From contig JAMLGT010000004.1 in NCBI GenBank assembly GCA_023957755.1, positions 124,001 to 188,000 of the forward strand: 64,000 nt of DNA. The letters run 5' to 3'. Each line of letters begins with the position of its first letter. The stretch's first letter is position 1. This document shows, piece after piece, positions 13,183 through 22,098 of this stretch. The notes beneath the pieces are model-generated. The model did no database searches. It saw only the letters and a program-made list of their open reading frames with translations, and was not told the origin of the DNA. The translations under genes were made by a program, and so were the position numbers. This DNA comes from Chitinophagaceae bacterium. GTDB lineage: Bacteria > Bacteroidota > Bacteroidia > Chitinophagales > Chitinophagaceae.

Positions 13183-13923
13183 ATGAGACTAACGAATACC
13201 CTACGAAATGTGTCGGTCGCAGTATCGGCAGTTTTACTTTTTTCATGTACAGCCACCAAGCCGACTCCGGTAGCAGTTGTTGCGGCGCCTACTCCGCCAC
13301 TACCCCCGGCTACACCCAAAGTAGTAACCGAACTGGATAGCGCTTCCTATGCTATTGGTGTGCAGGTGGCTACCTTTTACAGGAACCAGGGGATGGATTC
13401 TGTGAATTTTGATTTGATTCGCCAGGCTTATAAAGATGTGTACACCGATTCTCCATTAGTATTAGATTTAGAAGTAGCAAATATGACACTGCAGGAAAAA
13501 CTCGAAAAATTTATGAATGCCAAACTTAATAAAGAGAAAGAAAAAGGAAAGGCATTTCTCGATTCTATTGCCGCCAGGCCCAATGTGGTAAAGCTTCCTT
13601 CAGGACTGATGTATGAGATTGTAAAGAGAGGTGAAGGGGCGATACCTAAAGCTACGGACACTGTCAGAACCAATTATATTGGAAGCCTGATTGATGGTAA
13701 AGAATTCGACAACTCTTACAAGCGTGGTGAGCCTCTTGAGTTCCCTGTGGGTGGTGTAATCAAAGGATGGGTAGAAGCCCTTCAGTTGATGCCTGTGGGT
13801 AGTATCTGGAAGTTGTATATCCCTTCGGAACTGGGCTATGGCGACAGAGGTGCTGGCGGTGCTATACCAGGCGGTGCTCCTTTGGTGTTCACTGTAGAGT
13901 TGTTGGGAATCGTACATAAATAA
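13183..13923 (+). CDS. FKBP-type peptidyl-prolyl cis-trans isomerase lipoprotein
   Basis: A 246-residue protein with a lipoprotein signal (VLLFSC, Cys22) followed by a Pro/Ala-rich linker. Residues about 50-125 resemble the FkpA/Mip N-terminal dimerisation domain (YAIGVQVATFYRNQGMDSVNFD), and residues about 130-245 are the FKBP domain (LPSGLMYEIVKRGEG, YIGSLIDGKEFDNSYKRGEP, IPSELGYGDRGAGGAIPGGA). It should assist protein folding in the periplasm, tethered to a membrane. The NUDIX gene follows after 10 bp, so the two are probably co-transcribed. Confidence 0.93.
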   Translation: MRLTNTLRNVSVAVSAVLLFSCTATKPTPVAVVAAPTPPLPPATPKVVTELDSASYAIGVQVATFYRNQGMDSVNFDLIRQAYKDVYTDSPLVLDLEVANMTLQEKLEKFMNAKLNKEKEKGKAFLDSIAARPNVVKLPSGLMYEIVKRGEGAIPKATDTVRTNYIGSLIDGKEFDNSYKRGEPLEFPVGGVIKGWVEALQLMPVGSIWKLYIPSELGYGDRGAGGAIPGGAPLVFTVELLGIVHK

Positions 13924-19861: not shown

Positions 19862-20815
19862 CTATTTGATAATTGCATAGGCCGGATAAGGACGGGGGCC
19901 ATAGAATATGCGCAATGAATCTTTGACCCTGGTGGTGTCGCTTAAGGGGCGGTTGACTGATTCCACAACCCAAAAACCTGTGGAATCTTGCGAAATGATG
20001 GAAATGTTAGACTTAATGAGTTGCAATTCTTCAACCCTTCTTTCGGCCGTGGCTCTAAGTTTGTAAACTCCCACTACTACTTTAAATCCATTGCCGGAGG
20101 CGGCAGGGGTAGCCTGGACACTATCTGTGGGTGCCGGCGCGGGTGTCGACTGCAGTGAGTCTGAAATGGGTGTGGTTGCAGTGTCTGTGGGAGCCGGCGT
20201 AGTAGCATGTTGTATGGTGTCAGATGGTGTGGTGGCTTCAGTCTGAGTGAGTGTGTCAGATTCTTCCTGCTTAAAGTCGTAATTCCATAGCGCCCATCCG
20301 ATGAGTCCGAGAATCGCAACGAGAATAAGGTAAAGCCAGCCTCTTCCGTTCCTGCGTTTTTGTGTGCCCAGGTCCGAGAACGAATCGTCTTCTGTAGGCT
20401 CTGCTTCCTCAATTTCAGGTACTTTACGTTCAGACTCCAGCTTTTCAATCACATATTCTCCTCCTTTGAAGTTTAATACACCTGAAGAAGCCTTTTCCAG
20501 TGTCCCGATGTTAGGGATAATCATTGGTTTCCCGATATTCAGGAATTGTTTTCCTAATGCCAGATATGAGTCCAGATCTGCTGAAGCAAGAGGCTTAATT
20601 TTTCCGGTTGATTCAGATATGAAGGCGACCAAGTCTGCATCTTCAGGCGTTCTGGGGTCGTATTCAAAATGAATCGCATCCGATGGGATAATGATAGGTT
20701 TGGAAGGCTCTGCCGGTTCACTGACATTACCCTCAAGCTTGAAAACGCCAATTTCCTGAAGTCTCAATTCTTTATGAGTCAGTAGGTACTTAATAAATAT
20801 CTGGTCTATTTTCAA
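19862..20815 (-). CDS. HU-like (CCDC81-type) domain, TM helix and SPOR domain protein
   Basis: A 317-residue protein starting with TTG at 20815; a search upstream found no ATG or GTG in frame. Residues about 1-125 resemble the prokaryotic HU/CCDC81-type module (IKYLLTHKELRLQEIGVFKL, PNIGTLEKASSG). A single membrane helix follows at about 159-177 (WLYLILVAILGLIGWALW), preceded by KRRNGR. Residues ~181-242 are a Thr/Pro/Ala-rich linker, and ~243-315 are a SPOR domain (FKVVVGVYKLRATAERRVEEL). SPOR domains bind denuded glycan at division sites. The positive-inside rule puts the HU-like part in the cytoplasm and SPOR in the periplasm. A role linking division septum and chromosome is a hypothesis only. 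Confidence 0.85.
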   Translation of the reverse strand: MKIDQIFIKYLLTHKELRLQEIGVFKLEGNVSEPAEPSKPIIIPSDAIHFEYDPRTPEDADLVAFISESTGKIKPLASADLDSYLALGKQFLNIGKPMIIPNIGTLEKASSGVLNFKGGEYVIEKLESERKVPEIEEAEPTEDDSFSDLGTQKRRNGRGWLYLILVAILGLIGWALWNYDFKQEESDTLTQTEATTPSDTIQHATTPAPTDTATTPISDSLQSTPAPAPTDSVQATPAASGNGFKVVVGVYKLRATAERRVEELQLIKSNISIISQDSTGFWVVESVNRPLSDTTRVKDSLRIFYGPRPYPAYAIIK

Positions 20816-21227: not shown

Positions 21228-21548
21228 ATGCTTACAAAGGAAGAAAAGGATTTCTTAGTCTATTGGGAAACACACCGCGAGAAGGAGCATTCTCTGAAAA
21301 GTTTATTGATTTTTGGTGCCCCCTGGGGGCTCATTTTTGCTTTGCCTATCATGGTAGTACTTATTTTCCACGACTGGCATAAGCGTATTGTACCCATTAC
21401 CACAGGCCAGGTAATTGCTATTTCAATCAGTGTGGCTGCCATTGCCTTTTTTTATGCCTATTTCCGCCAGCAGGTGAAATGGGAGAATAATGAACAATTG
21501 TATAAAGAATTAAAAATTAAGGAAAAGAAAACAGAACAAAAGCAATAA
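21228..21548 (+). CDS. Small membrane protein, two TM segments
   Basis: A 106-residue protein. An acidic/basic N-terminal stretch (MLTKEEKDFLVYWETHREKE) precedes two membrane helices at about residues 24-44 and 60-80. A charged C-terminal tail follows (FRQQVKWENNEQLYKELKIKEKK), probably a helix in the cytoplasm. No named family is recognised, though short two-helix proteins of this kind are common in Bacteroidota. It precedes an FKBP lipoprotein gene by 49 bp and may be co-transcribed. The start is set by the promoter box 4 nt upstream. Confidence 0.7.
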   Translation: MLTKEEKDFLVYWETHREKEHSLKSLLIFGAPWGLIFALPIMVVLIFHDWHKRIVPITTGQVIAISISVAAIAFFYAYFRQQVKWENNEQLYKELKIKEKKTEQKQ

Positions 21549-21597
21549 TCAGTTTTCTTTGCAGCAAATTATCAACCCTGTACCTAAAGTATTACAA

Positions 21598-22098
21598 ATG
21601 AAAAAGATCGCTTTGTTTCTATCGTTTCCGTTTCTGGTGATGATTTTTATGAGTTGTAGTAAAAACTCCTCCTGCTCGGCTGTGGATACCAATAAGGTGG
21701 CACCTGCGGCTGAGATAGCCAATCTTCAGGACTCTCTGGCAAAGTATGGCATTGAAGCTACCCAGCATCCGAGTGGTATATTTTATAAAATCATAAACCC
21801 GGGAAGTGGTGGTATCGTTTCTAATCTGTGCACTCAGGTATCTGCCACCTACTGGGGAGGTTTTTTTGATGGAAGAAGCTTCGACCAGTCTTCTTCTCCT
21901 CTCACTTTTACATTGGGAGCCACTATCGTTGGATGGCATAAAGGCATACCGTTAGTTAAGGAGGGTGGGGAAATTGAAATTTATATTCCACCATCACTTG
22001 GCTATGGCAACGAGGATATGAAGGATAATAATGGAGTAGTAGTAATTCCGAAGAACTCTTATCTTGTCTTTAAAGTAAAAGTGGTCAAGTTTAGCTGA
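21598..22098 (+). CDS. FKBP-type peptidyl-prolyl isomerase lipoprotein
   Basis: A frame opens at 21559, but the ATG at 21598 gives a proper lipoprotein signal (MKKIALFLSFPFLVMIFMSC, Cys20), so I use it; length is 166 residues. The remainder is one FKBP domain: HPSGIFYKIINPGSGG, SATYWGGFFDGRSFDQS, VKEGGEIEIYIPPSLGYG. It lacks the N-terminal dimerisation domain seen in the first FKBP (13183-13923). It probably helps fold exported proteins. Many conserved FKBP active-site aromatics appear replaced, so isomerase activity is not certain. A strong terminator follows at 22121. Confidence 0.9.
   Translation: MKKIALFLSFPFLVMIFMSCSKNSSCSAVDTNKVAPAAEIANLQDSLAKYGIEATQHPSGIFYKIINPGSGGIVSNLCTQVSATYWGGFFDGRSFDQSSSPLTFTLGATIVGWHKGIPLVKEGGEIEIYIPPSLGYGNEDMKDNNGVVVIPKNSYLVFKVKVVKFS

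Follow-up and report, generated by a model that had tools for sequence, protein, structure and literature searches.

Several described systems come close to the protein reported here. The Bacteroidota proteins in which HU-CCDC81_bac_1 and HU-CCDC81_bac_2 are followed by SPOR (PF18174, PF18175, PF05036) form a family already in Pfam, and PF18174 matched 31 of 148 genomes of the phylum, with one protein in each. Burroughs and others, writing on HU superfamily clades in Cell Cycle in 2017, reportedly predicted a chromosome-partition role for the Bacteroidetes family, and they are said to have proposed it, through lateral transfer to eukaryotes, as the bacterial source of eukaryotic CCDC81. HU itself grips DNA by a long beta-arm and basic residues. 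FtsN, DedD and DamX are bitopic SPOR division proteins, each with an N-terminal part, one transmembrane (TM) helix, a disordered linker and a C-terminal SPOR domain, and in other bacteria TolQR and EnvC take part in constriction and in splitting of the septal wall. We found no experiments on the HU-CCDC81/SPOR family in the openly licensed PMC literature. According to passages of PMC6895207, every known SPOR protein has a role in division or morphogenesis, a Gln of RlpA (Q270) contacts glycan, and the equivalent Gln matters in DamX (Q351) and FtsN. In a passage of PMC11961760, the eukaryotic relative CCDC81b is proposed as a microtubule-inner protein.

We analyzed a 64,000-nucleotide stretch of DNA (the window), in which 954 bases at 19862-20815 of the minus strand form an intact ORF of 317 aa with TTG initiation. 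The window's nearest named relative, at 97% identity, is a Chitinophagaceae MAG, hence the term Chitinophagaceae-type for its genome. In 19 of 30 loci, own included, the first matched base coincided with a start codon (TTG, GTG or ATG); because the script chose the nearest start codon, this lends the assigned start weak support. Homologues of the window protein were found in 33 of the 59 genomes searched, own included, and the plasmid collection gave no match. The gene, the parts of its product and two divergent neighbours are as follows.

19862..20815, minus strand: gene of the HU-HU-TM-SPOR protein (A-type paralogue), 317 aa, TTG start; profile-profile match to the canonical family
20651..20815, minus strand: lobe 1, predicted CCDC81-type HU domain 1 (residues 1-55); helix 3-14 and three strands in the AlphaFold model
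20456..20650, minus strand: lobe 2, predicted HU fold without beta-arm (residues 56-120); HU fold match, HU-CCDC81_bac_2 in relatives
20345..20455, minus strand: acidic low-confidence linker (121-157), with QKRRNGR at its end before the TM helix; pLDDT <50 at 124-156, charges
20276..20344, minus strand: single predicted TM helix (158-180); hydropathy, helix 158-187 in the model
20096..20275, minus strand: Thr/Pro/Ala/Ser-rich low-complexity linker (181-240), probably periplasmic; pLDDT <50 at 183-241, sequence
19865..20095, minus strand: SPOR-fold domain (241-317), basic (+5, pI 9.9); fold matches, pLDDT 65-85 at 241-310, charge
21228..21548, plus strand: 106-aa membrane protein, divergent neighbour; cluster in 15 of 25 neighbourhoods, no Pfam family above cut-off
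21559..22098, plus strand: FKBP-type peptidyl-prolyl isomerase, divergent neighbour; PF00254 E 6.6e-17, cluster in 18 of 25 neighbourhoods

Judged from sequence and model, the window protein is a diverged member of the Bacteroidota HU-CCDC81/SPOR family: its model and fold matches give the domain order of that family, and its homology to members above the Pfam cut-offs is collinear. In Pfam, HU-CCDC81_bac_2 matched the window protein below threshold (16.8 bits, cut-off 35), HU-CCDC81_bac_1 gave no match, and SPOR was picked up only when the whole genome was searched, at 12.7 bits (E 0.5, cut-off 21), the other Pfam runs giving no SPOR match. Among 16 family members, HU-CCDC81_bac_2 matched all 16 and SPOR one at E<=1. 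The orthologues L094, L229 and L237 carry both HU-CCDC81_bac_1 and HU-CCDC81_bac_2 above the Pfam cut-off; L229 and L094 pass all three cut-offs, and L237 passes both HU cut-offs with SPOR at 19.3 of 21 bits. When 16 family rows were compared with 14 canonical HU-CCDC81-SPOR proteins by hhalign, the match had a probability of 98.8 and an E-value of 4.4e-17 and ran collinearly over 265 columns, from lobe 1 into SPOR; the SPOR part of 12 relatives alone gave a probability of 69.9 and E 4.1e-5. Searched against the PDB, the canonical profile found the CwlC SPOR (E 1e-5), the FtsN SPOR (0.0014) and HU-alpha (0.0017), and lobe 2 was 25% identical to an HU of its own genome over 56 aa (E 2e-4, a single pair). 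The PDB sequence search with the single window protein as query returned chance matches only, and matches in the NCBIfam search of the family were low and scattered.

The AlphaFold model was made from a 5-sequence alignment (the window protein and L071-L074). Its pLDDT was mostly 80-92 at residues 1-120 (86, 90, 86, 68 and 80 by tens along lobe 1) and 65-85 at 241-310, with disordered linkers and a whole-model mean of 66. Residues 57-120 matched HU 4p3v (Z 6.4, rmsd 1.9, 64 aligned), and residues 1-121 matched the doublet-microtubule chains 8v3l_A (Z 7.7) and 8snb_1K (Z 7.6), with 103 residues aligned in each at rmsd 3.7-3.8. The PDB rows print no chain name; we take both chains to be CCDC81, from recall and from a passage of PMC11961760, which cites 8V3I. 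Residues 243-315 matched the RlpA SPOR/denuded-glycan structure 6i09 (Z 8.0, rmsd 2.9, 73 aligned), the SPOR-fold region also matched DedD (Z 6.7), DamX (5.8) and CwlC (5.6), and five of the six best fold rows for residues 239-317 are SPOR or peptidoglycan-binding domains by title. Because these Z values, Z 8 included, are middling on the tool's scale and Foldseek with the model gave no E-value of 0.001 or lower, the independent sequence line provided by the profile-profile match is important. Model residues 1-119 also matched 9io5_R, a gliding motor chain of the Mycoplasma mobile G1-ATPase (Z 6.9); this match was set aside, as the terms searched in a part of PMC11864180 returned nothing HU-like.

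The model, the PDB folds and the profile-profile match (E 4.4e-17) confirm the original prediction, made from the sequence alone, of a single-pass protein with HU-like and SPOR domains at 19862-20815. The comparison with HU and CCDC81 structures that it had proposed was positive for HU and for the doublet-microtubule chains presumed to be CCDC81. Its assignment of an HU/CCDC81-type module holds in identity, by the folds and by Pfam in orthologues, but what it took for a single module is actually two tandem lobes.

In the counts that follow, 48-row figures (arm, SPOR motif, conservation) leave out rows shorter than 270 aa and 51-row figures (topology, module charge) keep them; both include the window's own protein and L024, L030 and L045, which are from the sister-type loci G030, G020 and G074. 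The HU lobes are the best-conserved part of the protein in the family alignment: lobe 1 has 2.5 bits per column and lobe 2 has 2.7 in its helices and 2.4 in its strands, against 2.05 for SPOR, 2.0 for the TM helix and 1.3-1.7 for the loop and linkers. Hydropathy of the TM helix is 2.05 over 19 residues from 159. The charge before and after the helix is +2 and -4 in the window protein, and family rows are more positive before it than after in 31 of 51, equal in 12 and reversed in 8. These data suggest that the HU module is likely cytoplasmic and SPOR periplasmic (N-in/C-out), as had been predicted, with modest statistical force. Sequence and model also agree with a layout of the FtsN/DedD/DamX type (N-in, one TM helix, linker, SPOR outside), in which the positive-inside signal is again modest.

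On balance we favor the view that the protein is an envelope or division-site anchor whose cytoplasmic, armless HU-HU module binds proteins, not DNA. It would be a bitopic inner-membrane protein in which the HU-HU pseudodimer, having no grip on DNA, serves as a cytoplasmic platform for protein binding or self-assembly. In this it would resemble its eukaryotic CCDC81 relatives, which apparently are such platforms inside microtubule doublets. The long disordered periplasmic tail would let SPOR reach the cell wall at constriction sites, and a cytoplasmic assembly would be linked to the envelope or division machinery, with a layout as in FtsN, DedD and DamX.

The window's own genome holds a sister gene (L095:8018-8638, contig C32) that encodes HU-HU-TM without SPOR and lies directly behind genes for a TPR protein of 1011 aa and a barrel-like protein of 545 aa that belongs to no Pfam family. 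Two-copy arrangements were surveyed in 117 genomes of the same family, each >=95% complete. A window-type copy was called present when the match was near full-length, had E <1e-40 and lay away from the barrel-like gene. Sister SPOR status was read from length, with sequence checks in part of the loci; sister ORFs were either 176-281 aa long, without SPOR, or 306-430 aa long, with SPOR. The sister HU-HU-TM profile, which also picks up window-type copies, matched 117 of 117 genomes. A sister copy was readable in 114 of them, and G146, G248 and G252, where no complete sister copy could be read, were kept out of the table. The window-type copy was present beside a sister without SPOR in 62 of the 114 genomes and beside a sister with SPOR in 4; it was absent where the sister had SPOR in 27 and where the sister lacked it in 21. 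Thus, the sister was without SPOR in 62 of the 66 genomes with both copies and in 83 of 114 overall. The distribution of SPOR between the copies gave a Fisher p of 3e-9, which is uncorrected for kinship and descriptive only. A strict rule of SPOR on one copy only fails, since neither copy has it in 21 of 114 genomes and both have it in 4. When the 21 genomes were searched with a profile of the window-type SPOR, nothing was found at E<=0.01, and 5 of them gave weak matches at E 0.01-0.06.

In a tree of 87 HU+TM rows, 57 window-type rows fell on one side of a branch with support 100/99 (L024, L030, L045, from the sister-type places G030, G020 and G074, and rows <270 aa were kept out of the window-type group). 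As far as sequences can tell, these results show the window type as a single-clade paralogue that keeps SPOR and the sister as usually without it. Our reading is that, once the gene had duplicated, as a rule a single copy retained the wall-binding end. The SPOR link appears dispensable in 21 of 114 genomes, because neither a window-type copy nor a sister SPOR is found there, and that SPOR can be lost altogether speaks against a role as essential as that of FtsN in the family as a whole. That Chitinophagaceae-type genomes often have two copies, of which the window copy keeps SPOR and the sister is usually without it, is new here. The two-copy lineages and the 21 genomes without either SPOR copy are natural experiments on the role of each half.

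Gene neighbourhoods were compared at 25 loci, 19 with a window-type gene and the rest canonical or sister-type. The recurring clusters were the FKBP gene (18 of 25), the 106-aa membrane protein (15), a serine-dehydratase-like gene (12) and a GroEL-like gene (7); beyond the window, the names L-serine dehydratase, GroEL and FolC were given on visual inspection of the sequences. The window also encodes another isomerase of the FKBP type, which includes an FKBP_N domain (13183-13923, plus strand), 6 kb from the HU-SPOR gene. For canonical genes, 22 loci were laid out, 3 of them sister-type. TPR and barrel-like genes were present in 9 of the 22, followed by TolQ/ExbB in 6 and then by ExbD and a 270-aa protein in 5. 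The six (L094 and L235-L239) have the order TPR, barrel-like, HU-SPOR, TolQ/ExbB, with a FolC-like gene, and five of them also have ExbD and the 270-aa protein, which belongs to no Pfam family; this gene order looks like that of a Tol-type trans-envelope system. Among the loci without TPR and barrel-like genes, 10 (of 22 total) had a DprA cluster and 9 a thioesterase; 7 had an M23 EnvC-like gene, which is close to the canonical HU-SPOR gene on the opposite strand. The ExbB protein scored best with the TolQ model and the M23 protein with EnvC, each below the cut-off. Because TolQR and EnvC act as they do in other bacteria, the context leans to the envelope or division. DprA, a DNA-processing gene, is the sole DNA-related hint in the neighbourhoods (10 of 22 canonical loci). 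In L092, L227-L229, L233, L241 and L242, the canonical gene is near both an M23/EnvC-like gene and DprA, and a DUF4292 protein (by Pfam in L229) adjoins the M23 gene in canonical loci.

These neighbourhoods bear on the alternative that survives best, that the protein is a structural part of a trans-envelope complex of TPR, outer-membrane barrel and TolQR-like proteins, not specifically septal, built on an invariable HU-TM core to which SPOR adds a wall contact in some cases. The barrel-like gene was matched in 116 of 117 genomes (G208 gave a weak partial match only), and by coordinates the sister comes after it, on the same strand, in 107 of 114. All 11 such loci examined (ten sister-type and one canonical), a set chosen for the presence of the HU gene, have the order TPR (~1000 aa), barrel-like (~550 aa), HU. 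Two further counts point the same way: canonical copies have TolQ/ExbB beside them in 6 of 22 loci, and the sister has no SPOR in 83 of 114 genomes. However, the window copy itself lies outside the TPR/barrel operon, as it does outside the canonical gene neighbourhoods, and that the middle gene encodes a barrel is a guess from its length and conserved terminal Phe, in a protein of no Pfam family. Seven genomes also break the linkage between sister and barrel-like gene: G208 and G286 have a sister-type gene and no full-length barrel-like match, G221 has the barrel-like gene at another place on the contig, and in G211, G238, G260 and G284 the two genes are on different contigs. We therefore regard this alternative as somewhat unlikely for the window protein and keep to a cell-envelope or division-site anchor.

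In the SPOR domain, the RlpA Q270 was placed on V247 via motif spacing and the CwlC alignment. No Gln was found at this position in 48 family rows (V in 33, I in 13, L in 1 and A in 1) or in 14 canonical Bacteroidota members, and we do not class the domain with the glycan-binding SPORs of the RlpA/DamX/FtsN type. Of the 48 rows, 4 retain the motif Gly and 19 the aromatic. The window protein has V-V-G-V-Y, with the Gly and aromatic retained and the Gln lost, and G-x-[FY] is retained in 9 of the 14 canonical members. The strongest conservation in SPOR is at D293 (48 of 48), D299 (46 of 48) and S300 (46 of 48), on helix 2, away from the face of the beta-sheet by which RlpA binds glycan. Binding of septal glycan is plausible, being allowed by the predicted fold and the basic charge (+5, pI 9.9), and is not assured for the window clade, because the Gln is lost and the Gly and aromatic often are. 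In a Pfam search of the own genome at E<=1, which could miss diverged SPORs, two SPOR proteins were found. The other one has 155 aa (L098:6107-6574, contig C4), and because it is short with a signal-like N-terminus, the window protein is the only membrane-anchored SPOR protein detected in its genome.

A shift of SPOR toward a protein partner is possible. In its full form, this second alternative states that the A-type copy has drifted, so that its SPOR fold no longer binds glycan and docks a protein via the helix at D293-T294 and D299-S300-L301. In its favor, the glycan-face motif is eroded while D293, D299 and S300 are near-invariant. The domain is nevertheless basic, V-G-V-Y is retained in the window protein, a structural capping role may explain the conserved helix residues, and the canonical members are also without the Gln (14 of 14), and we consider such drift unlikely. 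An anchor whose SPOR domain reaches the wall remains our preferred reading.

The N-terminal module was compared with true HUs. Between the conserved Gly and Phe, the arm stretch has 30 residues in both true HUs of the own genome and 11 in the window protein; it has 10-11 in 48 of 48 aligned family rows and 14 of 14 canonical members. Counted from 106 rather than 104, it has 9 residues in 46 of 48 rows, 8 in 2 of 48 and 28 in the true HUs. The module of the window protein has a net charge of -4 and a pI of 5.2, and the two true HUs have +13 and +5 with pI 10.7 and 9.6. Over 51 family rows the median charge was -3 (range -7 to +1), and the 14 canonical members had 0 to -7. The module thus has the HU/IHF core fold, without the extended beta-arm and without the basic character. 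Taken together, sequence and model present two predicted HU-type lobes with no DNA-arm, an acidic module, a putative single TM helix and a SPOR fold. Most simply, the HU module would serve in protein binding or assembly, and the protein is more likely an anchor or assembly component in the cell envelope than a chromosome tether.

A nucleoid-to-septum tether, in which the HU module binds DNA directly or via nucleoid proteins and SPOR marks the septum for chromosome partition, can claim true HU homology (25% identity over 56 aa to the own-genome HU; PF00216 Bac_DNA_binding at 34.5 bits, cut-off 22.4, in canonical L237), bitopic topology and a DprA neighbour in 10 of 22 loci, but we rate it as improbable and reject it as first choice because none of the members examined has the arm and their module is acidic, and CCDC81b is proposed as a microtubule-inner protein (PMC11961760, in part). 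The original prediction had put forward DNA binding that couples the nucleoid to the division site, which the arm of 11 versus 30 residues and the charge of -4 speak against; the self-assembly or protein-binding platform that it named instead fits the armless, acidic module better. As a whole it is partly supported, right in its observation and half right in its interpretation. With the arm absent in the bacterial versions examined, chromosome partition goes from the default guess to one option against an envelope role.

The envelope or division-site anchor that we favor may be extended, speculatively, to the Bacteroidota. An armless tandem HU would have become the cytoplasmic hub of a trans-envelope machine that is proton-motive in the manner of TolQR, binds the wall and acts in constriction, and that consists of TPR, outer-membrane barrel and HU-TM-SPOR proteins. 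Bacterial HU-CCDC81 would already have swapped DNA for protein binding, so that eukaryotic CCDC81 inherited an assembly function, and in Chitinophagaceae the machine would be divided over two copies, with the wall-binding part remaining on one of them. We offer this scheme tentatively and think it rather doubtful as a whole.

In comparison with known systems, the window protein is like HU/IHF in lobe 2, by fold and sequence, as is canonical L237, but its module is without a beta-arm, acidic, tandem in one chain and membrane-bound. The ciliary CCDC81-type inner proteins of doublet microtubules match both lobes over 103 residues; they are eukaryotic, and the identity of the matched chains is presumed. 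With FtsN, DedD and DamX the window protein shares an N-terminal part, a TM helix, a disordered linker and a C-terminal SPOR fold, but its N-terminal part is a folded HU-HU module and the glycan-contact Gln is absent. The closest described system is the Bacteroidota HU-CCDC81_bac_1/HU-CCDC81_bac_2 and SPOR family, with the same domain order and a collinear profile match, from which the window copy differs in lying below all three Pfam cut-offs and in being a second copy in Chitinophagaceae-type genomes.
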